Assembly: GCF_026210795.1 (NCBI RefSeq)
Contig: NC_089456.1
Span: 1,490,501 to 1,554,500 of the forward strand
Reading direction: 5' to 3'
Origin: Rhizophagus irregularis
Taxonomy: Eukaryota; Glomeromycota; Glomeromycetes; Glomerales; Glomeraceae
DNA: 64,000 bases
Under the pieces are notes generated by a model that had not been told where the DNA came from, did no database searches, and was given only the letters and a program-made list of their open reading frames with translations. The position numbers and the translations under genes were made by a program. This document shows positions 3,391-46,516 of the stretch, in pieces. The first letter of the stretch is position 1. The number at the start of each line of letters is the position of its first letter.

Positions 3391-4860
3391 ATATTATACT
3401 ATTGACTTTTAAACTTAATATATTTTGATTTCCTTTTATTATAATCCATTTTTATTATTTCTTGATTTTCATTTTCAATGTCACTTTTTATAACTTTTTC
3501 TTCAAATCTTAGTCTTGATAATGCATCTGCATTCTTAATTTTCTTTTCACTTCTATGAACTATTTTAAAATCAAATTGTTGTAATTTCATTACTCATCCT
3601 ATTCTTTTTTTTGTTTGTTTTTTTCCTGTTAATCCTTTTAATACTGTATGATTTGTTATTACTACTAGATATTTCTGAAAATATTTTATCCCTCAAAATA
3701 CTGCCAAACATTTTAATTCTATTGGTGAGTAATTCTTTTCTGCTCTGACTGTGCTTATTGCATACACTATTACAGTTTCTTTGTTTTCTTCATTCATTTG
3801 AGCTAATACTACTCCTAATCCTATTTTAGATTAATCAGTTATTAATATAAATTTAGTCAGATTATGTAATAGTTTTGCTATCTTTGAAAAATCTTTTATA
3901 AACCTTTTATAATATGAACATAATTCTAAAAATAATCTTACTTCTGTAACAGTTACTGGTTTCTTTATGCTTTTTAACTTCTCAATTTTCTTTCATCTGG
4001 TTATAAACCATCTTTTCCTATTATATATTCTAAAAAGTTTATATTTTTTAATCTAAACTGGCATTTCTTCAATTTCACAATTATATTATTTTCTCTTAAT
4101 TTGTTTAATACTTTATCAATATGTTCTATATGTTCTTTAAAATCTCTTGAATAAATCATTATATCATCTAAATATACTGTAACAAATTCTTCAATATATT
4201 CTTCTAATATTTTATCTATTAATCTTTGAAATGTTTCTGGTGCATTCTTTAAACCAAATGGTATAACATTATATTCAAATAATTCTTGTAAACATATAAA
4301 TGTTGTTCCTTTTTATCTTCTGCAATTTCTACTTGATAATATCCTACTGCTAAATATAAACTTGTAAACCAATTTCCCTTTCTGAATTTTTCTAATAATT
4401 CATCTATTTGTGGTAATGAAAATCTATCTGTTTTTGTTACGCTATTTAACTTTTTATAATTAATGCAGAATCTATAATTACCACCTTTCTTTCTTGCTAA
4501 TATTACTGGTGATCCCTAAGGATTTCATGATTTTCTTATTTTTTCCATTTTAATAATTGTTCAATCTCTTTCTTTATAAATTTTCCTTTTTCATCAGTTT
4601 CTTTATTTATATCTTTTCTGTAATATTAATTCTTAATTTCCTTCAATTATTATTTTATACTTATTGTATTTACTTTTTCTAATTTTTCTTTATCATATTC
4701 AAATATATCTTTATATTTTCTTATTAAATTTTTAAACATTTTTTTTCTCATTATTTATTTTCTCTAAACATATTTTCTTTTCAAATCTTTTTTCTTTACT
4801 TTTATTTGGCATTTTTATCATCTCTCTTTCTTTTAGAAAGCCAAGGCTATTTATTTTACT

Positions 4861-5088
4861 TTATTTTTCTTTTTCTTTTGAGCTTCCTCTATACTTGAGA
4901 GTAGTTCTTCTTTCTCAAATTCTTTATATTCATCTTCACTCTCTGATTCTTCATTAAAATCATTATTCATATCTTATTTTTCTTTTTCTTTTGAGCTTCC
5001 TCTATACTTGAGAGTAGTTCTTCTTTCTCAAATTCTTTATATTCATCTTCACTCTCTGATTCTTCATTAAAATCATTATTCATATCTT
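4861..5088. repeat. Two near-identical 114-bp tandem copies
   Basis: The stretch starting TTATTTTTCTTTTTCTTTTG at 4,861 recurs at 4,975 and runs to about 5,088. By eye the two copies are identical over essentially the whole length. 114 is divisible by three, so on the minus strand the duplication keeps the frame of an acidic gag/pol linker inside the Ty3-type remnant. The near-perfect identity contrasts with the heavy decay around it. Confidence 0.9.
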
Positions 5089-7256
5089 TTGTATCCTTTG
5101 AACCTTCATTAAATTTGCTTTCTGATTCTTCAAACTCAACATTTTTCTTTCAATCAATTGGTATTTCATATATCTCATCATTTAATTCTATTGTTAACAA
5201 ACCTTCTTTCATATTTATTATCCCATATTTTAACAAATCAGTTCCTAGTATCAAATCTTTTCTTTTTGAATCAAATCACTTCAAATTCTAAAGGTATCTC
5301 TAAATTTTTCATTGATTTTTATTTTAATCTCTACTATTCCTAATAAGTTATATTTTTCCTATTTGCTATTGTTAGTACAACACTACTTTTTCTTGTTATT
5401 AGTATATTTAATTCTTTTCTCAATTCATTTATTTTACTGAAGGTTCTGCTCCCGTATTAATACTCTTATTATTTTTCTCTCAATTATTATATTACATCTT
5501 GTCTCATGATTTTTTTTCTTTTTGATTAATATTTTTTAATTCTTCCAAGTGTAATCAATATTTTAAACCATCTTTCAACTTCTTTTTTGTATTTGGTTTC
5601 ATTAAAGTACTGTCTCAAAGTAATTGGTACATTCAAATTTATAAATTCTTTACTGGTTTAAACTCTTCAACATTAGGTATTTTTCAGTTCAATTTTGCTT
5701 TTTCATTTGTATATTCTCTAGTAAAATGCCCTTATTGTCTACAATTATGACATCTATTATTATTTCTCCTAGTTTCTTGAGCTTTTCATAATTGCTCTTA
5801 AGTGAAACCTCTTTTTATTCCTTATGCTTTCTGTTGTTATCCTTGCTATTGTTCATTTCTTCTTCTAATTCTTTCATTATTTATAACTCTGTCTTTATTT
5901 CTTTTGTTTCTTCTAGGTGGTGCTGGATACATATCATTTCTTCTATACCTTCATTATTATCTAATTCATAATTGTTATATTCCTCATGTTTCATCATTAT
6001 AGTTATCATAGTTATTGTACTCATTGTATTTTACATTATAAATATTATACACATTATCATAATATTCTTCATCTATATAGTTAACTTAATTGCTTTCTCT
6101 GTATGGTTTCCTATTATTTCCTCCATTAACTTGATTATTTCCTCCATATGATCTTCCTTGATTTTTTCTACAAATTTTAGAAGTATATCCTTATTTTCCA
6201 CATGTAAAACAAGTCATTTCATTCCAACTAACATTATTATTTCTTTGACCATTATTATTTCTCATTAGCCTTCTATTATTTCCATTCATTTGCATCATAT
6301 ATACTTCTATTCTTTTAAATCCACTAATTAATAACTAGGTTTACTTTACTTTTTTATATTTATTCATTTCCTCTTTCAAAATATCTTCCATACTTTTCTT
6401 TTGTCCAATTTGTCCTATATTCAAACCAATTGTTTTCCTCAATAATTTGCTTTTGGCTTCTTTCTTTCTTGCTTTATCAATTGCATCATTTAAATTCTCT
6501 GGATTTAATCCCCTAACTTGATATCCTAATATAGGTTCTAATCTTTAAATGAAATAATTTACTTGGTATACATCATTTAATATATAACCTCTAGTTGTAA
6601 TTCTTAATACTGCTCTAAATCTTTTGGTATATTCTTCAATACTTTCATTTACTCTTTATTTAATTCCTGCCAATTCTATCATTTTTCTCCTCTAATATCT
6701 TCTCTAGTAAATCTTTTTTTAATTCTATCTTTTAAATTATTATCATTATCTTCATCTGTCCAATTTACTAAATGGCCAACATTTGCCTCTTTCATTTTAT
6801 TATATTATTGTGCTACTGCACCCTCAAACAAGTTGCTGTATATGCCACTTATCTCGTACTATTGGCTCCTACTGCCTTTTTTATCACTGTGAATGCTATT
6901 TCAATCTAATCATTGATATCTTCATCTTCTTTTCTGTAAAACATTAGCATATTTACTATTTCAGTCTCATTTCCTGCAACTTCAATTCTGTCTGCTATTT
7001 TTTGTTCTTTTTCTAATGCATTATCCAATGCATTAGCTATTAATCCTAAAGCATTTTCTAATATTCTTCTTATTTGTGCTTTAGTTGCCATATTCATTAT
7101 ATTTTCTTAAAATAATTTTTGTAAGTTATAATCAAATAATTCTATAACATTTTCAACTTTGTTTTCAAGTTTCATTTTCTTCAAAATCTTTAGTATTTCA
7201 TTCCAATCTTCATGTTTTCCTTAACTTAAAATTTCTCCAATCTTTTCTGAATCATC

Positions 7257-25434: not shown

Positions 25435-26734
25435 TAGAGTTTAGAACCGGTTCTATTTTCGAAAACCGAATTTAAAACGGGCGCAACCGGTTCAATCCGT
25501 TTCAAACCGATTTCGCAAAACCCGATTGAAACCGAATAACCGATTCGTATATATTTGATAATTCTGGCCAGAATTAAATGTGATCGGCATAAATCCTGCC
25601 AAGTTATAATTCCGGCCGGAATTACATCCCTTGTGTAACACAGTTCGAAATTTTGTGGGACACAAATATCTATAATAAAATTTTGTGTAACATAACTTAC
25701 CCGGTGGCTAAACTATTTAGCCGCAGTCACGTGATTTAAATTTCGTAATTCGGGCCAGCACTATAAAGTTTCAAATATTTTATTAATTAATTATAAATTT
25801 TATAATTATTTCTTATTATTTTATATTACGTCAATTTTAAACTTATAATCAACTTAGGAAAAATATTTGAACAATCAAATATATTAGAAATCTGTTCATT
25901 TCATTTATTATTATTCTTTTGATACTCATTTTATTCAATAAATTATCAATTTAACTAAACCATTTGAATTAAAATTTTTATTCAAAAATCTGGTGATTAT
26001 TTAGAGAATTTCGAATATGGATTTGGTTACAATAGTCTATTATTAAATCAATAATTTCTTTAATTAATTAATTGTAAAATATTGTAAAAATATCAATTTT
26101 TTTTGATTTTTATGAATTTGAAAATCAAACTTGAAAATCTTAATCATCTTTCCTACATGTTGTTATAAAAAAAATTGAAAGAAAAAAAAATTGAAAATAA
26201 ATTTGGGGGAAAGAAAAAGGATAAAGAAAGGAATCGGTTCAAAAAAAGGGAAATTTCCAAAAAAAAAGGAATCTAAAAAAAAATAAGTACCGAAAAAAAT
26301 TCTGAAAAAAAAGGACAATAATTCAAAAAAAAAATATTTTTCAGTTTGGGAAAAAAAATTAAACCTAAACGGGAAAAGAATGAGAAAAAACAAATTTTTC
26401 GGTTTGAAAAAAAACTAAACCGAAAGAAGAAAGGAAGAAAATTTTTTTTTCAGTTTGAAAAAAAAAACGAAAAATTTAAAATTATTAATCAAAAAAAAAA
26501 ATTCTAAAATTTCATTAACTGAAATTGTATTAGTTGATTGGGGATAAATAGATCAGGTGGAGGCATGTCACCATTCACAAAAATTAAAAATCAGTTTTGA
26601 TCGGTTTGAAATAACCGGTTAATCGGTTTAAACCGGTTTGAATATAACCGGTTAACTGAATCGTAAACCGGTTAAATTTCGAATCGGTTAAACCCGGTTA
26701 TAAATCCGATAACCGATTCCGGTTCTAACCTCTA
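25435..26734. mobile_element. Non-autonomous hAT-like transposon in the satellite
   Basis: The 1,300-bp insert starts TAGAGTTTAGAACCGGTTCT and ends CCGGTTCTAACCTCTA, giving inverted ends TAGAG(T/G)TTAGAACCGG. It is flanked on both sides by the perfect 8-bp direct repeat CGTCAGAC. TIRs opening with TAGRG and 8-bp target duplications are hallmarks of the hAT superfamily. Subterminal AACCGGTT-type motifs cluster at both ends (25,440-25,550 and 26,600-26,725). The interior is AT-rich, has poly-A/T tracts and codes for nothing. The target duplication also occurs in the monomer, but the abrupt sequence change and matched ends support a true insertion. Confidence 0.8.
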
Positions 26735-29425
26735 CGTCAGACATGACATTTTTGTGATTAAAAATAAAAAAAAATGATTTTTTTAGTTAAAAAATGTCAG
26801 ACTTGACGTTTTTGTAATTAAAAAATCAAAAAAATGACTTTTTTAGTTGAAAAACGTCAGGCTTGACGTTTTTGTAATTAAAAAATCAAAAAAATGACTT
26901 TTTTAGTTGAAAAACGTCAGGCTTGACGTTTTTGTAATTAAAAAATCAAAAAAAATGACTTTTTTAGTTGAAAAACGTCAGGCTTGACGTTTTTGTAATT
27001 AAAAAATCAAAAAAAATGACTTTTTTAGTTAAAAAACGTCAGGCTTGACGTTTTTGTAATTAAAAAATCAAAAAAATGACTTTTTTAGTTAAAAAATGTC
27101 AGGCTTGACGTTTTTGTAATTAAAAAATCAAAAAAATGACTTTTTTAGTTAAAAAACGTCAGGCTTGACGTTTTTGTAATTAAAAAATCAAAAAAATGAC
27201 TTTTTTAGTTAAAAAATGTCAGGCTTGACGTTATTGTAATTAAAAAATCAAAAAAAATGACTTTTTCAGTTAAAAAACGTCAGACTTGACGTTTTTGTAA
27301 TTAAAAAGTCAAAAAAAATGACTTTTTCAGTTAAAAAACGTCAGACTTGACGTTTTTGTAATTAAAAAATCAAAAAAAAATGACTTTTTTAGTTAAAAAA
27401 CGTCAGACATGACATTTTTGTGATTAAAAATAAAAAAAATGATTTTTTTAATTAAAAATGTCAGATTTGACGTTTTTGTAATTAAAAAATCAAAAAAATG
27501 ACTTTTTTAGTTAAAAAACGTCAGACTTGACGTTTTTTAATTAAAAAATCAAAAAAAAAAATGATTTTTTTAGTTAAAAACGTCAGACATGACATTTTTG
27601 TGATTAAAAATAAAAAAAAATGATTTTTTAATTAAAAACGTCAGATTTGACATTTTTATGATTCAAAAAATTATTTTTTACGTTAGATTTGACAATTTTG
27701 TAATTAAAAATCAAAAAAATTGATTTTTTTAGTTAAAAACGTCAGACTTGACGTTTTTGTAATTAAAAAATCAAAAAAAAATGATTTTTTAATTAAAAAC
27801 GTCAGACTCGACGTTTTTGTAATTAAAAAATCAAAAAAATGATTTTTTTAATTAAAAACGTCAGACTTGACGTTTTTGTGATTAAAAATCAAAAAAATAT
27901 TGGTTTTTTTAATTAAAAATGTCAGACTTGGCATTTTGTAATTAAAAATCAAAAAAATATTGTTTTTTTTAATTAAAAATGTCAGACTTGACGTTTTTGT
28001 AATTAAAAAATCAAAAAAAATGATTTTTTTGATTAAAAATGTCAGACTTGATGTTTTTGTAATTAAAAAATCAAAAAAAATGATTTTTTTGATTAAAAAC
28101 GTTAGACTTGACATTATTGTAATTAAAAAATCAAAAAAAAATGATTTTTTTAATTAAAAACGTCAGACTTGACATTTTTGTTATTAAAAAATCAAAAAAA
28201 TGATTTTTTTAATTAAAAAACGTCAGACTTGACATTTTTGTGATTAAAAAATAAAAATCAAAAAAATATTGGTTTTTTTTTAATTAAAAACGTCAAACTT
28301 GACGTTTTTGTTATTAAAAAATCAAAAAAAAAATGATTTTTTTAATTAAAAACGTCAGACTTTGACATTTTTGTGATTAAAAATCAAAAAAATATTGGTT
28401 TTTTTAATTAAAAATGTCAGACTTGGCATTTTGTAATTAAAAATCAAAAAAATATTGTTTTTTTTAATTAAAAATGTCAGACTTGACGTTTTTGTAATTA
28501 AAAAATCAAAAAAAATGATTTTTTGATTAAAAATGTCAGACTTGATGTTTTTGTAATTAAAAAATCAAAAAAAATGATTTTTTTGATTAAAAACGTTAGA
28601 CTTGACATTATTGTAATTAAAAAATCAAAAAAAAATGATTTTTTTGATTAAAAACGTCAGACTTGACATTTTTGTTATTAAAAAATCAAAAAAATGATTT
28701 TTTTAATTAAAAAACGTCAGACTTGACATTTTTGTGATTAAAAAATAAAAATCAAAAAAATATTGGTTTTTTTTAATTAAAAACGTCAAACTTGACGTTT
28801 TTGTTATTAAAAAATCAAAAAAAAAATGATTTTTTTAATTAAAAACGTCAGACTTTGACATTTTTGTGATTAAAAATCAAAAAAATATTGGTTTTTTTTA
28901 ATTAAAAACGTCAGACTTGGCATTTTGTAATTAAAAATCAAAAAAATATTGTTTTTTTTAATTAAAAATGTCAGACTTGACGTTTTTGTAATTAAAAAAA
29001 TCAAAAAAAATGATTTTTTTGATTAAAAATGTCAGACTTGATGTTTTTGTAATTAAAAAATCAAAAAAAATGATTTTTTTAATTAAAAACGTCAGACTTT
29101 GACATTTTTGTGATTAAAAATCAAAAAAATATTGGTTTTTTTAATTAAAAACGTCAGTCTTGACATTTTTGTTATTAAAAAATCAAAAAAATGATTTTTT
29201 TAATTAAAAAATTCAGACTTGACATTTTTGTGATTAAAAAATGAAAATCAAAAAAATATTGGTTTTTTTTAATTAAAAACGTCAGACTTGACGTTTTTGT
29301 TATTAAAAAATCAAAAAAAAATGATTTTTTTAATTAAAAACGTCAGACTTTGACATTTTTGTGATTAAAAATCAAAAAAATATTGGTTTTTTTAATTAAA
29401 AACGTCAGTCTTGACATTTTTTGTT
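26735..29425. repeat. Satellite array of ~57-65-bp palindromic monomers
   Basis: About 44 tandem monomers follow one plan: TGACGTTTTTGTAATTAAAA, AATCA, an A-rich centre, then the inverse (TGATTTTTTAATTAAAAA, CGTCA), and a GACT-type spacer. Each monomer can fold into a stem of some 23 bp. Blocks differ: 26,750-27,410 is homogeneous with TGACTTTTTTAGTT, while 27,900-29,400 shows a higher-order period of about 495 bp. Open frames through this block are by-products of the repeat length and not genes. Confidence 0.9.
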
Positions 29426-29739
29426 AAAAAAATAAAAAATGAAGAAAAAACGTTTTTGCGTTATTTTTTTTATAATTTTATATGGAAAAATTCCAAAACG
29501 TTTTTTTCTTAATAGTAATGCAAAAAAAAAGTTTTTGGCATTTTTTTTAATAATATTATATGAAAAAACGCTGAAACATTTTTTTTACAATTTTTTTATT
29601 TTTTTGCAATATTTTATGAAATTTTAATGATCAACAAAAAAATGAAATTATGCAAATATTGAATGATGCAACAATTTAACAGGGACTTTTAGTGGCACAG
29701 GAAGAGTTTTTGCGAAAAGTTGGCATTAGAAGTTTTTTT
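29426..29739. other. A/T-rich satellite flank with a diverged ~80-bp duplication
   Basis: Two related stretches (about 29,450-29,520 and 29,525-29,590) share ACGTTTTT…ATAATWTTATATG-RAAAAA blocks. They resemble further derivatives of the satellite. No gene was seen. Confidence 0.45.
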
Positions 29740-29827
29740 CATTGTCATTGTCATTGACATTGACATTGACATTGACATTGACATTGACATTGACATTGTC
29801 ACTGACATTGACATTGTCATTGACATT
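29740..29827. repeat. Hexanucleotide microsatellite (CATTGA)n
   Basis: About fourteen units of CATTGA/CATTGT in tandem. The Ile-Asp repeat encoded in one frame is a consequence of the microsatellite rather than a protein feature. Confidence 0.9.
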
Positions 29828-30092
29828 TACATAAAGTTATATAAGATTAATCTGAGAGTTTTTTACCAAAAAGGAAATTTTTTTATAAAAAGGGAAATGA
29901 TTTTCAATTTCGAGGCAATTCAGCAGGTGTTTTAATAACAAATTGAGAAATGATTTCCATAGAAAATCTCATGACAAAATTTATAATAAATTTAAAATAA
30001 ATGATCAACAAAAATGATCAACAAAATCGTTACTAGTTTTATAAAAAACGCCCAATAATATCTTTTTATTGTTTTAATATATCTCAACTTCT

Positions 30093-35630: not shown

Positions 35631-36143
35631 TTTTTTATAAAATTAAGATATATTTTTTTATATATATTTTGACCTTCAATTCCTATTATAATCACAAGAA
35701 TTAGCCTCCTGAACAATGTATACGAATAATAAATATTTCCTTGATGTTAATATATAGTTAGCTCTTAGATATTTGGCCAGTCAATTCATAATTCCTTGAT
35801 GTCAATATATGGTTAGCTCTTGGATTTTGATCAACCAATTTCATGCTGCAAATCATGATCAATTTTTTTTTTATATAAACGACCATTATTCGTAATATTG
35901 AACTCAATATCAACTCAATATCAATATCAATATCAATATCAATATCAATTCAATATCAATTCAATTTCAATTCAATATCAATATCAATATATATAAAAAA
36001 CGTACCCTATACTTAGCGCATAAGAGCTAACCAAATTAGTAAAATTTTCCTTCCTTTCCAGGATAGCACGATTAGCAGAACAACCAATCACAAGGAATAT
36101 CACTATTAAAATGAAGATCACCTGATATCATTAACTATATAGC
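35631..36143. other. Intergenic DNA with short tandem repeats
   Basis: Contains a 55-bp tandem duplication (TTCCTTGATGTTAATATATA starting at 35,737 and its variant at 35,792, sharing GTTAGCTCTT). An (AATATC)n/(AATTC) microsatellite runs at about 35,901-35,994. No gene was seen. Confidence 0.6.
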
Positions 36144-38511: not shown

Positions 38512-41500
38512 TTAATCGGATTTGTCTGATTTAACATCTAAATTATTAAATAATTAATTAATTTTATGCAAAATAATTCGTAAATTACCTTTTTTATACG
38601 CAAATAAACTATTGATATCAATATTGTATATGTTACATACCCAATGAATTCATATCACTAACTATGCAATCCAAACATTCACTTTTTAGAATGTCATTTA
38701 ATTTTTCACTAGTAAAGTTAAGTAAGCGACTTGTATAACATGCTTGCGAATGAAATTTAGTAACAGGATTTTTATGCTCAATTGGTGCATTTATAAATTC
38801 CATGATTTGGCTTTTTAATTCTTCATCAATATCTTTAATTTCCGTTTGATCAGGAATAAAAATCCATTTTCTAAAAGTATTTAATACTTCCTCAGAGGAT
38901 GGTCGTTTTAATGGATCTTCATCCCAACACTTTTTCATCAAATCTACATAGCATTGTGGAGTATTTTCAGTAATTTCAGGTCGTTCACCTCTACAAATAC
39001 TTAAACTAAGTGGAAGATCATGTTCTCTATCATTAAATGGTGGAACTCCAGATGTAAATTCCCACATAATCATAGAAAAACTATATATATCACTAGCTAG
39101 AGTGTAAGGTTTGCCTCTTAAAACTTCAGGTGCCATAAATGGTATAACACCATAAATATCATCTTTTTTAAAAAATGATTTTACAGGTCTACATAATCCT
39201 AAGTCACTAATATAAACTTTATACTCGTTCGTATCCTTATGATTTAAAACATTACCATCATGAAGATCACAATGCATGAGATTTTGTTGATGTATATAAT
39301 TAAGCCCCAAAATAATTTTATATATTATACGTAATTTTTGTTTCCAATCATAATTAACTACTATCGTTAAATTTCCTCTTAAATTACCTTGATTTGCATA
39401 ATCCATTATTACCAAATAATCAGAAGTATCTGGATCTTTTGTGAATCCATATAATTTAATAAACTGATATGAACCTAAACTTTGATGATATTTCCACTAT
39501 AAGAAATAAAATTAGATATTAGCAAAAATAAATTATTATTTGAATTAAAAAAATAAATAATGTATTATTATATACTTCATTTAAAAAATCATTTGAATTT
39601 TCATTCATACTATTATTGAAGCTTTTAAGAACTACTACTTTATTCTCATCTTTCCAAATAGCTTTATATATAGTACCAAATCCCCCTTTATCAAGATATT
39701 CAACATTATTAAATTTATTATAAGGAACCCATTTTAATTCTTTCTCAGAAATAAACTCATTCAAATTTATATTTTCACTTTCTCCAAATCTATAAATTTT
39801 AATATAAATTAATATAATTTTGTAATTATTTAAATTATAGTTTAAAAATAAAATGTCAATACTTACTCTAAAATTTAAATAGAAATTTAATAAAATATAA
39901 ACTTTAGTTTTTCCATAAATATATATAAAATAAATTAATAATAAATTATTACTTACCAACTAACAAATATTTTTTTATATAGAGAATTTAATAAATTAAA
40001 TTTAATTTATAAAAAATATCAAATAAATATATAAGAATAGAAATAAATATAACTTACATGCTATATTATCAAATAAAGAATTCAATTAGTTTAAATTATA
40101 TATAAATATTATACAAATATGTAATAATAAATAAAATTAAATAAATAACTTACATGCTATTATTAAATAATTTTCAAATAAAGAATTTAATTAGTTTAAA
40201 TTATACACAAATATTTTATAAATATGTACTAATAATGAATAACTTGCAAACTATATTTTTAAATAATTTTCAAATAAAGAATTTAATTAGTTTAAATTAT
40301 ATGTAAATATTATACAAATATGTAATAATGAATAGAATTAAATAAATAACTTGCCATCTATATTATTAAATAATTTTCAAATAAAGAATTTAATTAGTTT
40401 AAATTATACGTAAATATTTTATGAATATGTACTAATAATGAATAGAATTAAATTACTTACGAACTATATTATTCAATAATTTTCAAATAAAGAATTTAAT
40501 TAGTTTAAATTATACGTAAATATTATATAAATATGCAATAATAAATAGAATTAAATAAATTACTTACCGTCTATATTATTAAATAATTTTCAAATAAAGA
40601 ATTTAATTAGTTCAAATTATATGTAAATATTATACAATTATGTAATAATATAATAACTTACCCTCTATATTATTAAATAATTTTCAAATAAAGAATTAAA
40701 TTAGTTTAAATTATACGTAAATATTATATAAATATAATGTAATAATGAATAGAATTAAATAACTTACCAACTATATTATTAAATAATTTTCAAATGAAGA
40801 ATTTAATTAGTTTAAATTATACGTAAATATTATATAATTATGTAATAATAATAGAATTATATAAATAACTTACTTGCTATTATTAAATAATTTTCAAATA
40901 AAAAATTTAATTGGTTTAAATTATATGTAAATATTATATAAATATAATGTAATAATGAATAGAATTAAATAACTTACCAACTATATTATTAAATAATTTT
41001 CAAATGAAGAATTTAATTAGTTTAAATTATACGTAAATATTAAATAATTATGCAATAATGAATAGAATTAAATAAATAACTTGCCATCTATATTATTAAA
41101 TAATTTTCAAATAAAGAATTTAATTAATTTAAATTATACGTAAATATTATATAAATATGCAATAATGAATAGAATTAAATAAATAACTTGCCATCTATAT
41201 TATTAAATAATTTTCAAATGAAGAATTTAATTAGTTTAAATTATACGTAAATATTATATAATTATGCAATAATGAATAGAATTAAATAAATAACTTGCCA
41301 TCTATATTATTAAATAATTTTCGAATAAAGAATTTAATTAGTTTAAATTATACGTAAATATTATATAAATATGCAATAATGAATAGAATTAAATAAATAA
41401 CTTGCCATCTATATTATTAAATAATTTTCAAATGAAGAATTTAATTAGTTTAAATTATACGTAAATATTATATAATTATGCAATAATGAATAGAATTAAA

Positions 41501-44369
41501 TAAATAACTTGCCATCTATATTATTAAATAATTTTCAAATAAGAATTTAATTAGTTTAAATTATACGTAAATATTATATAAATATGCAATAATGAATAGA
41601 ATTAAATAAATAACTTGCCATCTATATTATTAAATAATTTTCAAATAAAGAATTTAATTAGTTCAAATTATATGTAAATATTATACAATTATGTAATAAT
41701 ATAATAACTTACCCTCTATATTATTAAATAATTTTCAAATAAAGAATTAAATTAGTTTAAATTATACGTAAATCTATATATTAAAAAACACTGCAATCAC
41801 GTGGGCGTTATGTTTAGATTAACCATATACTAAATAAGTCATTTGAATTGTGTAACCCTACTCCTATTCGTCGCCAATGTTACACAAGACCAAAAAGGAA
41901 ATTTTATTTATGGCGAAAAACTGAAATTTTGGGTTACATAGGATTCCATAAAAGGAAATTGTCGGTTACGCAAATTTCCAAAAAAGGATATTTTGTTTTC
42001 TGTTACTTTTCAGAGAAATTAAAAAAATTGTGTTGCTCAAATTTCCAAAAAAGGAAATTCTTTGCAGATCTTTTAATTCTGGCCGGAATTACATATTAAC
42101 TGTTGTCGTAGACAACAGGTGAACACTAGTATTATATAAATATAATGTAATAATGAATAGAATTAAATAACTTACCAACTATATTATTAAATAATTTTCA
42201 AATAAGAATTTAATTAGTTTAAATTATATGTAAATATTATACAAATATGTAATAATGAATAGAATTAAATAAATACTAACTTACATGCTATTATTAAATA
42301 ATTTTCAAATAAGAATTTAATTAGTTTAAATTATACGTAAATATTTTATAAATATGTACTAATAATGAATAACTTACAAACTATATTATTAAATAATTTT
42401 CAAATAAGAATTTAATTAGTTTAAATTATATGTAAATATTATACAAATATGTAATAATGAATAGAATTAAATAAATACTAACTTACATGCTATTATTAAA
42501 TAATTTTCAAATAAGAATTTAATTAGTTTAAATTATACGTAAATATTTTATAAATATGTACTAATAATGAATAACTTACAAACTATATTATTAAATAATT
42601 TTCAAATAAAGAATTAAATTAGTTTAAATTTAAATTATACGTAAATATTATATAAATATAATGTAATAATGAATAGAATTAAATAACTTACCAACTATAT
42701 TATTAAATAATTTTCAAATGAAGAATTTAATTAGTTTAAATTATACGTAAATATTATATAATTATGCAATAATGAATAGAATTAAATAAATAACTTGCCA
42801 TCTATATTATTAAATAATTTTCAAATAAATAAGAATTTAATTAGTTTAAATTATACGTAAATATTATACAAATATGTAATAATGAATAGAATTAAATAAA
42901 TAACTTACATGCTATTATTAAATAATTTTCAAATAAGAATTTAATTAGTTTAAATTATACGTAAATATTATATAAATGTGTAATAATGAATAAAATTAAA
43001 TAAATAACTTACGTGCTATATATTATTAAATAATTTTCAAAAAAGAATTTAATTAGTTTAAATTATACGTAAATTTTATATAAATATGTAATAATAGAAT
43101 TGAATAAATAACTTACTAACTATATTATTAAATAATTTTCAAATAAAGAATTCAATTAGTTTAAATTATATGTAAATATTATACAAATATGTAATAATAA
43201 ATAAAATTAAATAAATAACTTACATGCTATTATTAAATAATTTTCAAATAAAGAATTTAATTAGTTTAAATTATACACAAATATTTTATAAATATGTACT
43301 AATAATAAATAACTTACAAACTATATTTTTAAATAATTTTCAAATAAAGAATTTAATTAGTTTAAATTAGTATATGTAAATATTATACAAATATGTAATA
43401 ATGAATAGAATTAAATAAATAACTTACATGCTATTATTAAATAATTTTCAAATAAGAATTTAATTAGTTTAAATTATACGTAAATATTATATAAATGTGT
43501 AATAATGAATAGAATTAAATAAATAACTTACGTTCTATATATTATTAAATAATTTTCAAAAAAGAATTTAATTAGTTTAAATTATACGTAAATTTTATAT
43601 AAATATGTAATAATAGAATTGAATAAATAACTTACTAACTATATTATTAAATAATTTTCAAATAAAGAATTTAATTAGTTTAAATTATACATAAATATTA
43701 TATAAATATGCAATAATGAATAGAATTAAATAAATAACTTACTCCCTATATTATTAAATAATTTTCAAATAAAGAATTTAATTAGTTTAAATTATACGTA
43801 AATATTATATAAATATGCAATAATGAATAGAATTAAATAAATAACTTACTAACTATATTATTAAATAATTTCAAATAAAGAATTTAATTAGTTTAAATTA
43901 TACATAAATATTATATAATTATGTAATAATAATAGAATTATATAAATAACTTACTAACTATATTATTAAATAATTTTTAAATGAAGAATTTTATTAGTTT
44001 TAAATTATATAAACGACAGAAATATAGATATAGATAATAATATAACTTACACCCTGTAGTATTATTAATTATTAATTAATTAAATGTAAATAGTATCACT
44101 ATAAATGTACATACTGTAATTAAATATAAATTAAATATATCACTTACATTCTAAATCATTTGAATAAAGAATATAATTAGTTTTAATTATATGTAAATAT
44201 TTACTAATAAGCATAATTATATTAACCTTCAAATTTCTTGACTTCAAATTCTTCAGTGCTACTAGAAACTAGTATATTATATTGCAAATTTGTTTTAAAA
44301 ATTTTAGATTAATTTGTATCAAATATTCATGCTACTATGCTTTGTACCTTTATCATTACTTTGAGCCAT
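38512..44369 (-). CDS. Protein kinase interrupted by a 39-micro-exon array (kinase gene B)
   Basis: Conventional exons: 44348-44369 (MAQSNDK), 44227-44268 (SSSTEEFEVKKFE), 39576-39789, 38641-39496, 38512-38537. Between the second and third lie 38 three-nucleotide exons and one single-nucleotide exon (39,867), each flanked by AG and by GTAAGT or GCAAGT. The assembled frame is 1,275 nt (424 residues) without a stop. The micro-exon-encoded stretch would be 38 residues with aromatic/Ser content first, then six Asp, then V/E/S-rich. The kinase domain follows: glycine loop DKGGFGTIY, lysine in VVVLKSF, catalytic loop HCDLHDGN with Asp present, DLG, and APE in PFMAPEV; it looks active. The last intron (GTATGT…TTTAG) yields the tail DVKSDKSD. 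Kinase exons are secure. The micro-exon splicing is inferred from sequence signals and frame closure only. Confidence 0.75.
39867..44160 (-). repeat. Tandem intron/micro-exon array, ~107-bp unit
   Basis: Thirty-nine units. On the minus strand each has donor GTAAGT (or GCAAGT in nine), a middle AAACTAATTAAATTC with a branch-like CTAAT, and acceptor TTTAATAATATAG (or AATAATAG). Three variable nucleotides then precede the next donor. Low coordinates of the triplets: 44158, 44051, 43955, 43850, 43743, 43636, 43532, 43428, 43318, 43224, 43117, 43013, 42909, 42799, 42692, 42580, 42487, 42378, 42285, 42176, 41713, 41619, 41513, 41406, 41299, 41192, 41085, 40978, 40874, 40768, 40662, 40568, 40461, 40355, 40248, 40154, 40058, 39957. 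The last unit has only one nucleotide (39867). Spacing is 90-112 bp except where a Helitron-like insert adds 357 bp. Fourteen different triplets occur (ATG 8, CAT 7, TTG 5, TTT 4, TTA 4, AGG 2, eight singletons). Confidence 0.9.
41773..42129 (+). mobile_element. Non-autonomous Helitron-like element
   Basis: The 357-bp insert interrupts one array unit: array text …GTAAA | TATTATA… is split exactly between A and T. The insert begins TCTATATATTAAAAAACACT and ends …GTGAACACTAG. Seven nucleotides before the terminal CTAG is a hairpin with an 8-bp stem (CTGTTGTC-GTA-GACAACAG, 42,100-42,118). A 5' TC, 3' CTAG, a subterminal hairpin and A/T target insertion without duplication are the defining Helitron end features. 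The interior has no helicase; it holds a palindromic AATTCTGGCCGGAATT at 42,075. A weak 83-codon frame (41,848-42,099) is not recognisable. Confidence 0.85.
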
Positions 44370-45212
44370 TACTAGAAAATACCCCCTAAAAAGAAAATGT
44401 TAGTTAGCTGTTAATGTGGTGTGCTGTACATATGGTCCGATTTTTGAAAGGCTAATCAACATCATGATCTACAAATTGATCACCTGATACTCCAATTCAC
44501 CTGATTTAATGATCTGCACAACTATTCGGACGCTAAATTTATAACATTGTAACACTATTTTAAAATACTAAATTTTTATACATTGAATTTAAATATAATA
44601 CTGCGTCCTATAATTAATAAATTTACTAGGTATATTACGGCATTACAACGTCTACAATCGTCTACTGTATATTGTTTATATAATAAAAAAATTACTTGTT
44701 TTTCATTTTTAATAGATTTTGTTTGAAAAAATCAAAGTGTATTCATTTTTTAATGAAAAATTTGATTTTAATAAAAAAATAATTTTTTTTTCATTTTTAA
44801 TAAAAAAAATGACTTTTTTCATTTTTTCGTTTTTAATAAAAATGACTTTTTTGCATTTTTTAATAAAAAAAGTGACCTTTTCTTCAATTTTAATAAAAAA
44901 AAAAGATGACTTTTTTTTTCATTTTTAATAAAAATGACTTTTTTTATTAGTTAAATCGATTAGGTCAATGCGTGGTGACTGCTCATTTGGATTAGGATTT
45001 TGCTTTGGATTATTTGGGTCATTTGCGCCAACACCAGATACGATTTTTATTACATATTTTAAAAGTATAACAATTTATGCAGGGCATATATGCATGTATG
45101 GAGCCAGCAAATTTTCTAGGGAATAATCTGTACGTACTGGTATCAATTTGACCAAATGTACTATACTGATTTTCAAATTCGTATCCATACTGAATATTTC
45201 CTTACTACCTTC
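44370..45212. other. 5' flank of kinase gene B and T/A-rich short repeats
   Basis: Presumed promoter region of the minus-strand kinase. From about 44,700 to 44,945 short ~33-bp units of the form TTTTTAATAAAAAAATGACT repeat imperfectly; they resemble the stem half of the 25-29 kb satellite. A 69-codon Phe/Lys-rich frame there is a by-product. Confidence 0.5.
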
Positions 45213-45362
45213 TTTACAGAAACTTCAAGATCGTAGCGATGGCTTAATGCGCAGTAACTGCATATATGTAATTTCATTACGATTACATAATGTGGTCACT
45301 ATGTATTTATAACGCAGTTACTGCGCATTAAGCCATTGCTATGATCTTGAAGTTTCTGTAAA
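45213..45362. mobile_element. MITE/foldback with ~49-bp inverted ends
   Basis: The left arm TTTACAGAAACTTCAAGATC, then GTAGCGATGGCTTAATGCGC and AGTAACTGC, is mirrored by the right arm with only a few mismatches, around a ~50-bp loop. There is no coding capacity. Very well preserved arms suggest a recent foldback element. Confidence 0.75.
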
Positions 45363-46516
45363 GTTGATCTGTTATCCCCATCTTCATCACTCCTCTTTTA
45401 TTTTCTTTTAATTTTATAAAAACAACTGAAACATCATCTATCCCATTTATCCTATGTATTATCTCATTTATCTATTTTATTTTCAGTATTATTTCAATTT
45501 TTATGTACTATTTAAAATAATAAATTTAATGGGTAGAATAGTAGGCATTTACTACTATGTTTAATGAATGAAACAATTTTTAAATGATTTGCAATAATAG
45601 TAAATGAATATATGAAATAACTGATACTAATATTGAAGTAAGTAACCATAAATATAAATATTAAATTGAGATATAATTATTGATTTTTATTGATTTTTTT
45701 TTTAAAAAAAAAAATAGTAACGCGCTTTATTAATTATGTGCGATCAAAACAGATCTAGTATAACTTACAAAAGCACTTAGAGCAAAAAAGGAAAAATCCT
45801 TTTAAACCCTATAACTAAGTATATCGTACATGGTTTTAAATTTAAAATCTAACTAAAAAAAATTGTGTTTGATTAAAAATTAAAAATATTGTTTAAACTA
45901 CGCTACTACTAAATAATTTTACGATGTTTTTTGATTTTTGATATTTTATGTGTTTTGAGGCTTTACTATTTTCTAAATCGTTCTACACTAATTATGAAGA
46001 AAAGAAAAATAAAAACCTAGATATTATATATAAAAGCGTTCGAAATAAAGCTCTAAATTTTGTCTCGAAAAAGATTTCTAAAAAAAAACTACACTTTTCA
46101 TCGCGGAAAATATCGTAGGTAGTCTTACAAACTCTCCGTTGTTTCAAATGCCTCAACCCTTTCTCCCTGCTTTGGCACTATACGCTTTTTGTTTTTATTG
46201 AATTTTTATTGATTTTCATCATAAATTTTAATGGTGATAAAATCGCTCATAGGTGAGTTTTAATTCCCGGACTCGGCAGGTCATAACATTATGTAACAAA
46301 TCTATGTTATCACAAGAAAATTTATAATGTGTGTCAAGCCTCATTGTGGTACAGCAAAGAACACGAGATAATTTTCTTAGAAAGTAGACGCCAAAAAATG
46401 TTTGAGATACCATTTTTGACTTGTTTGGATAAGTAAAATCGAAATTTATAATCAAAGTAAAAGAATCCCATTTATTTTTCATGCTTTGTATAATAGTATG
46501 GTGACGGCAAGCGCTG
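45363..46516. other. Intergenic DNA without recognisable gene
   Basis: AT-rich at first, then less so from about 45,720. The minus frame at 46,228-46,548 (106 codons) is mixed in composition but overlaps the edge of the next mobile element and shows no motif. I see no supported gene. Confidence 0.45.

Follow-up and report, generated by a model that had tools for sequence, protein, structure and literature searches.

How would a protein be made from a gene in which dozens of consecutive introns are separated by exactly three nucleotides each? The question is raised by a predicted kinase gene of Rhizophagus irregularis, lying on the minus strand of the 64,000-nucleotide (nt) stretch of DNA analyzed here (assembly GCF_026210795.1, contig NC_089456.1, positions 1,490,501 to 1,554,500; hereafter the window, whose first letter is position 1). 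Between the N-terminal exons of this gene and its kinase domain lies a tandem array of units of about 100 nt. Very probably, all triplets of such an array are spliced together and translated, and arrays grow by unit duplication. This reading is drawn from the DNA itself, namely from the anatomy of the units, the fixed size of the exons, an absence of stop codons confined to one phase, the recurrence of arrays in a gene family, and a divergence of the triplets that exceeds that of the introns. Beyond what the initial annotation of the locus had proposed, we find that the gene is one of a family with about a hundred or more members, that a conserved 1-nt exon closes the array, and that variation is far greater in the triplets than in the introns.

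Structure of the window gene

The predicted splicing yields a kinase gene of 418 codons without an internal stop (38633-44369; this and the following features of the gene are on the minus strand). The initial annotation had held that the concatenated triplets are stop-free and open into the kinase domain, which is the case in this model; its predicted length of 424 codons is replaced by 418. Exon 1 (44348-44369, 22 nt) encodes MAQSNDK plus 1 nt, and exons 1 and 2 (exon 2, 44227-44268, 42 nt) together read MAQSNDKVSSSTEEFEVKKFE, leaving phase 1 at the end of exon 2. They are followed by the array of 38 three-nt exons (39957-44150), assigned from the site pattern and the family tests described below. 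The first bases of exons 1-19 of the array are 44150, 44053, 43957, 43852, 43745, 43638, 43534, 43430, 43320, 43226, 43119, 43015, 42911, 42801, 42694, 42582, 42489, 42380 and 42287, and those of exons 20-38 are 42178, 41715, 41621, 41515, 41408, 41301, 41194, 41087, 40980, 40876, 40770, 40664, 40570, 40463, 40357, 40250, 40156, 40060 and 39959. A 1-nt exon, the A at 39867 in TTTTAG/A/GTAAGT, closes the array. The first kinase exon (39576-39789, FGESENINL...) is entered after AG plus one base, and the last exon (38633-39496) encodes the remaining kinase domain and the stop. The predicted spliced product thus runs from a short acidic N-terminus through the one-codon-exon array to the kinase domain, with the spliced array contributing 115 nt between exon 2 and the first kinase exon and spelling EWFIRIKPFSFTPYVVSFSFEDDDDDDVAIEDVHVSSF, whose low-complexity runs include poly-D. 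The kinase matches PF07714 (E=1.1e-43, 149.8 bits) and PF00069 (E=2.3e-43, 148.9 bits), in both cases above the curated Pfam cut-off (23.1 and 31.7, respectively).

On the minus strand from 44150 to 39957, 39 sites of the form AG/NNN/G[TC]AAGT (or GTACAT) are found, in addition to the closing site at 39867. One of them, TAT at 44113-44111, is a look-alike inside the intron 44147-44054 and probably not an exon, because it would leave an intron of only 34 nt and AG/NNN/GT is absent at this point in the five paralogues checked (L026, L015, L010, L007 and L008); it is also the only site with GTACAT. The 39 units with 38 triplets counted in the initial annotation are confirmed as 38 three-nt exons and one 1-nt exon, and the donors after all 38 triplets are GTAAGT or GCAAGT. 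Of the signals that had been claimed for every unit, donors and acceptors are present but the branch-like site is not universal, since [AT]CTAAT occurs in the preceding intron of 33 of the 39 rows (the preceding intron of the first row was unmeasured in this count). The array introns are 89-109 nt long, the sole exception being an intron of 460 nt (41716-42175) with an insert of ~355 bp (roughly 41776-42130).

Within the insert, a 37-nt direct repeat occurs three times (41924-42059). The insert was considered as a transposon and is not so named here; its inverted pair is imperfect (23 nt), and one arm reaches into array sequence.

Exon size and intron character

The arrangement was analyzed in 45 loci, comprising the window, 20 loci from the best matches to the array unit, 19 picked by eye from the 95 array ends described below, and five kinases without a strict array end. 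Many of these loci were cut by the fetch, which makes the exon counts per locus (from 1 to 138 three-nt exons) lower bounds. Acceptor and donor scores were trained on 597 strict sites from 21 loci, after which exon sizes of 0-12 nt were scored without a size term. Among the best-scoring junctions of all 45 loci, 1,503 of 1,595 enclose an exon of 3 nt and 34 an exon of 1 nt, with no other size exceeding 11. The 21 training loci gave 646 best sites of 3 nt, 12 of 1 nt and at most six of any other size, and the opposite strand of the same loci gave 27 sites in total, one of them of 3 nt. A similar distribution was obtained in 19 non-training loci, with 533 sites of 3 nt, 16 of 1 nt and at most six of any other size.

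The sequences between these exons have the character of U2-type spliceosomal introns, with a GT/GC donor, a branch-like motif and an AG acceptor. In a set of 1,208 array introns, the donor is GTAAGT in 1,053, the acceptor is TAG or CAG in 1,206, and a CTRAY branch-like motif is present in 910; since the scan demanded AG and scored the donor, only the finer splice-site preferences are informative. By comparison, none of the ten exon-2 donors of parsed paralogues is GTAAGT. The introns have a median length of 95.5 nt, evenly spread modulo 3, and stops occur in frames 0, 1 and 2 of 1,199, 1,208 and 1,200 of them, respectively. With stops in all three frames and lengths distributed evenly modulo 3, the array introns are neither coding nor read through. 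Their GC content is 11.3%, versus 38.4% in the triplets. As an explanation, removal of the units at the DNA level instead of the RNA level, or an assembly artefact, is hardly credible in view of these donor, branch-like and acceptor signals and of the presence of arrays of differing sequence on many contigs.

Stop codons in adjacent triplets

In phase 1, which is set by the upstream exons, each codon of the array consists of the last base of one triplet and the first two bases of the next, with an intron of ~100 nt between them. A triplet ending in T must then not precede a triplet starting with AA, AG or GA. Compared with the expectation from 1,000 shuffles of triplets within loci, the predicted phase contains 0 stops in 1,338 adjacent pairs of the 45 loci versus 54.9 ± 5.8 expected (the lowest of the 1,000 shuffles gave 37), whereas the other split phase, used as a control, contains 176 versus 160.3 ± 8.2 expected. 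The result supports the initial proposal of a tandem duplication of intron-plus-codon units in which each triplet is an exon. Stops are likewise absent from the 471 pairs of 19 non-training loci (18.1 ± 3.4 expected) and from the 1,122 pairs that remain when the two largest arrays are removed (43.4 expected). When each pair type is counted only once in 40 loci, which discounts tandem duplication, stops are formed by 0 of 106 T-ending and 96 of 348 other pair types (Fisher, 2.5e-13). In the 40 loci, TAG, TAA or TGA occurs as a complete triplet five times, and only phase 1 avoids reading these as stops. The last five loci alone, with 0 stops in 92 pairs versus 2.6 expected, are too weak by themselves.

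When one to six triplets are skipped in the 40 loci, the resulting pairs form 53, 48, 30, 34, 29 and 24 stops, respectively, versus 44.2, 39.2, 34.7, 31.2, 27.3 and 24.2 expected. An alternative-splicing machine, in which variable subsets of triplets are joined to give many isoforms differing by whole codons, would suit the similarity of the sites; with almost every scored exon at 3 nt, the frame would also survive the joining of any donor to any downstream acceptor. However, skipping one to six triplets makes stops at about the ordinary rate, which implies no selection against stops in skipped products, and we regard such a machine as unlikely; some triplet skipping may occur as noise. Since adjacent pairs are free of stops while the control phase and the skipping pairs lie near expectation, the pattern indicates that the product under selection includes all triplets, in order.

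The same comparison bears on the possibility that the array is skipped whole, as a single long intron or a series of decoy sites, the triplets never entering the mRNA and the repeat being an intronic satellite. Tandem repeats within introns are common, and in the window the direct joining of exon 2, the 1-nt exon and the kinase exons is also open (380 codons). Such skipping leaves unexplained, however, why stops are missing in one phase and not in the control phase or in non-adjacent pairs, why the spacing of 3 nt is fixed despite introns that differ in length and sequence, and why the codons A-L-x-[D/N]-W are conserved. It is strongly disfavored by the stop test, and we consider it very improbable.

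Agreement of the reading frame

Inclusion of the full array is also consistent with the frame on both of its sides. Exons 1 and 2 could be parsed in ten of 40 scanned loci (a 22-nt exon-1 pattern followed by an open exon 2), and in all ten their coding length leaves phase 1. Exon 2 of these paralogues is 24-138 nt long and a multiple of three in 10/10. It encodes short acidic, GSxxEEFE-like repeats whose number varies among paralogues (e.g., C25_2268k, which is L026, and C15_962k, which is L015). On the other side, AG plus one base precedes the kinase exon in 29 of 29 matches that begin at residue 1. With phase 1 upstream and this mode of entry downstream, exactly one extra base is needed, and the 1-nt exon would supply it. 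This A is conserved at array ends across the family, and its omission causes the spliced frame of the window gene to stop after 28 codons. Reading through the last intron (39866-39790) as coding sequence was considered instead; among 33 genes, only the window gene and L044 stay open across this intron, the other 31 being frameshifted or stopped, and for this reason the 1-nt exon was retained in the model.

Applied to the 5' ends of the arrays, a simple rule identified 29 loci. Five clean triplets could be read there in 16 loci, and in 15 of these 16 they spell A-L-x-[D/N]-W, with a Leu codon that varies synonymously (C/TT or C/TC, the slash marking the split). The one deviating locus, L047, reads DHRKW and appears to have been matched in mid-array.

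Occurrence across the genome

Genome-wide counts were made in the assembly, whose 32 contigs total 146,748,485 bases. The strict tandem pattern (TAG-NNN-GTAAGT, 60-90 nt, TAG-NNN-GTAAGT) has 1,121 + 1,228 = 2,349 matches, versus 2 for its reversed control, and its four-base version has 0 (reversed control, 1). Extrapolated roughly, the whole genome would hold about 6,000 three-nt exons, a figure on which nothing here depends. The array-end pattern, TAG-TYG-GTAAGT followed by TTYAG-A-GTAAGT, has 95 matches, mostly preceding related kinases, and none in the reversed control. The DNA of the array unit has at least 238 matches on many contigs, and those that were fetched lie in arrays.

A protein search for kinases scored 114 among 7,109 candidates. 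One of the 95 array ends lies on the same strand within 1.5 kb upstream of 67 of these 114 places. Ten of the other 47 kinases, lacking a strict array end, were inspected (five already in the sample and five chosen by eye); an array is present in each, and the number of triplets scored ranges from 12 to 80. Short and long arrays are exemplified by C28:1612k (12 scored) and C8:4107k (80 scored). Conversely, 28 of the 95 array ends have none of the 114 kinases behind them; 11 of these 28 are in the sample, and a kinase match is nevertheless present at ten of the 11, the exception being L051. Altogether, a kinase match lies downstream in 42 of the 45 loci, and one kinase-bearing gene of the sample has 89 three-nt exons scored. 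Still more, 138, were scored at C11:881-895k (about 881,276-895,340, combining L014, L030 and L059), with no stop in its 134 pairs. According to a review, tyrosine kinase-like genes are expanded in R. irregularis (PMC4219462).

Divergence and role of the array segment

The triplets differ between copies far more than the introns around them. In 134 nearest-neighbor pairs of units with near-identical flanking introns, from 13 genes, the difference per site is 0.144 (14.4%) for triplets versus 0.0147 (1.5%) for introns, a ratio of 9.8 (6.9-16.0 in a bootstrap over genes). Without the two largest contributors (L048 and C11:881k), the values are 0.174 and 0.0178 in 65 pairs. No triplet change is seen in 97 of the 134 pairs, and one, two and three changes are found in 22, nine and six pairs, respectively; in five of these 37 pairs the introns are free of mismatches, and four of the five are CGA and GGG pairs in L048. 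This pairwise comparison supersedes an earlier, less strict one that ignored indels.

The higher divergence of triplets suggests diversification, and the excess could result either from diversifying selection or from conversion that homogenizes introns but not codons. The array segment would then be a variable region that diversifies fast, and not just a spacer, a role to which we give slightly less than an even chance. A specific form of this idea, somewhat less probable still, is a region variable codon by codon, in which the introns of ~100 nt would serve as recombination spacers, unequal exchange would insert, delete and shuffle codons in frame, and selection would diversify a recognition segment before the kinase in about a hundred or more genes.

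A plain spacer, whose full inclusion is real but whose residues are free apart from the removal of stops and the keeping of splice sites, with neutral growth, likewise falls just short of an even chance, and a variable binding segment is about as likely. This proposal contests the role of the segment only. It agrees with the poly-D runs of the window, with four-triplet blocks repeated in the C11:881k array, with lengths that differ widely between paralogues, and with the many identical triplets among close pairs, including three of the 13 genes in which the triplets do not differ at all. A roughly ten-fold triplet excess lies above its neutral prediction, unless conversion homogenizes the introns. 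The commonest array residues are R, W, D, F and Y; tryptophan accounts for 7.8% of residues, 1.6 times the shuffle expectation, which also speaks against a plain spacer, although part of this enrichment follows from the avoidance of T-starting stops.

Observations weighing against full inclusion

Several observations count against the splicing and translation of all triplets or narrow its basis. The window by itself provides no significant stop test (0 of 35 pairs versus 1.3 expected). The training sites had 3-nt exons by definition, though size was unscored, and chains were broken at junctions more than 140 nt apart or at exons not of 3 nt, which left units with weak sites outside the stop test. 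Eleven 2-nt and eleven 6-nt best sites occur in the 45 loci; some may be real variant units, and some are probably due to chance. The ten-fold triplet excess comes from 134 pairs, in 13 genes of which three are without any triplet difference.

Other points concern individual copies. No kinase match was found in the fetched stretch of three of the 45 loci (C11:881k, C19:590k and L051), which for C11:881-895k covers ~1.7 kb past its last triplet. L051 and L052 have the conserved array end (TTG, A) with only one triplet and no array upstream, and a kinase match is present in L052 and absent in L051. Because of these one-triplet loci and the arrays without a kinase match, some copies of the family may be dead. 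Finally, a search for spliced, intronless copies (retrocopies) of the 5' triplets and of the 3' junction gave 0 matches each, which we count as neutral, although a single match would have proved the splicing directly.

Proposed mechanism and comparison with known systems

Given the weight of the stop test, the full inclusion of triplets remains the preferred reading, and the array would be an extreme but chemically ordinary spliceosomal segment, each unit of ~100 nt being a complete intron with one 3-nt exon. All introns would be removed and the triplets joined in order into a protein segment (38 codons in the window gene), each codon being split so that its first base ends one exon and its second and third bases begin the next, and the terminal 1-nt exon would set the frame of the kinase domain. 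The short introns are presumably recognized across the intron and removed one after another, the growing 5' exon then ending at the next donor, because two spliceosomes are unlikely to act together on sites 3 nt apart. Such stepwise removal would be in line with the sequential intron removal, with intron definition, that has been suggested for a 1-nt exon of Arabidopsis (PMC4674806). Near-perfect GTAAGT donors may compensate for the missing exon context; in plants, conserved GTRAGT donors are described beside the 1-nt exon of VPS55 (PMC8831610). Tandem duplication or deletion of units or blocks would lengthen or shorten the array, changing the protein by whole residues and never shifting the frame, and the repeated four-triplet blocks of C11:881k point to growth by this route.

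Among described systems, schistosome micro-exon genes comprise 10-20 exons of 6-81 bp (3-81 bp is also given), mostly of 15 bp, with introns of 0.1-5 kb, and encode secreted products with isoforms arising through alternative splicing of the central exons (PMC10526429). As described there, they resemble the arrays in that tiny exons, with lengths mostly divisible by three, follow one another in large number, and in belonging to a gene family whose products vary. They differ in that the array exons considered here consist of one codon, number dozens per gene, are separated by introns with a median of 95.5 nt and precede a kinase domain; their 3 nt lie outside the range of 6-81 bp, mostly 15 bp, while 1,503 of 1,595 are tiny multiples of three. 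Aphid bicycle genes, which encode putative effectors, have ~17 exons on average, and megacycle has more than 100 microexons (PMC9168663). They share with the arrays an abundance of small internal exons that almost all have the same phase, and a highly divergent coding sequence, but, as described in that source, not the one-codon exons in tandem intron-plus-codon units. Isolated exons of 1 nt or 3 nt are described in Arabidopsis APC11 (PMC4674806), in plant microexons (PMC8831610), in Drosophila homothorax (PMC7392893) and in Fusarium CYP621A (PMC12940212), and one transcript of rice has neighboring microexons of 5 and 12 nt (PMC8831610). The isolated cases show that exons of 1 nt and 3 nt can be included; as described, however, they are single exons and not arrays.

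A further comparison is with introners, dispersed intron-generating elements that place similar introns at many unrelated sites, and with intron gain by tandem duplication; in both, near-identical introns are multiplied inside genes. Unlike there, intron and codon are duplicated together in the arrays, and the coding sequence grows with every copy.

Tandem arrays of one-codon exons are not described among the matches listed in keyword searches of the open-licence literature, this fungus included. They appear to be a new arrangement, with the caveats that the introns themselves are ordinary and that micro-exon genes are the nearest known kind.

Other features of the window

An inverted repeat at 45212-45363, ~850 bp upstream of the kinase gene start, has 50-nt arms that are 96% complementary and 52 nt apart, and possibly represents a small mobile element. 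Long tandem repeats rich in AT occupy 26734-29439; their unit is ~60 bp, and longer periods are also present. Hexamer arrays of CATTGA and TCAATA, with ~15 copies each, lie at 29740-29832 and 35904-35990, respectively. Two perfect tandem copies of 113 bp are located at 4861-5088, partly overlapped by an acidic minus-strand open frame (4967-5149). Another minus-strand open frame (4249-4515) resembles what we take to be a piece of a retrotransposon reverse transcriptase. A tRNA scan of the window gave 0 genes.

Implications

If true, the reading presented here would provide a case of splicing more extreme than any described in the literature examined, with 89 three-nt exons in a gene with a kinase and 138 in a single array. 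It raises the question of how the spliceosome removes dozens of introns in order, with only 3 nt from each acceptor to the next donor, without harmful skipping. In an important plant symbiont, a large family of signaling genes likely needs its N-terminal halves reannotated, because common aligners would place such exons poorly; long-read RNA exists for R. irregularis (PMC10234402). The arrays would also represent a route for protein evolution one residue at a time, via intron duplication.

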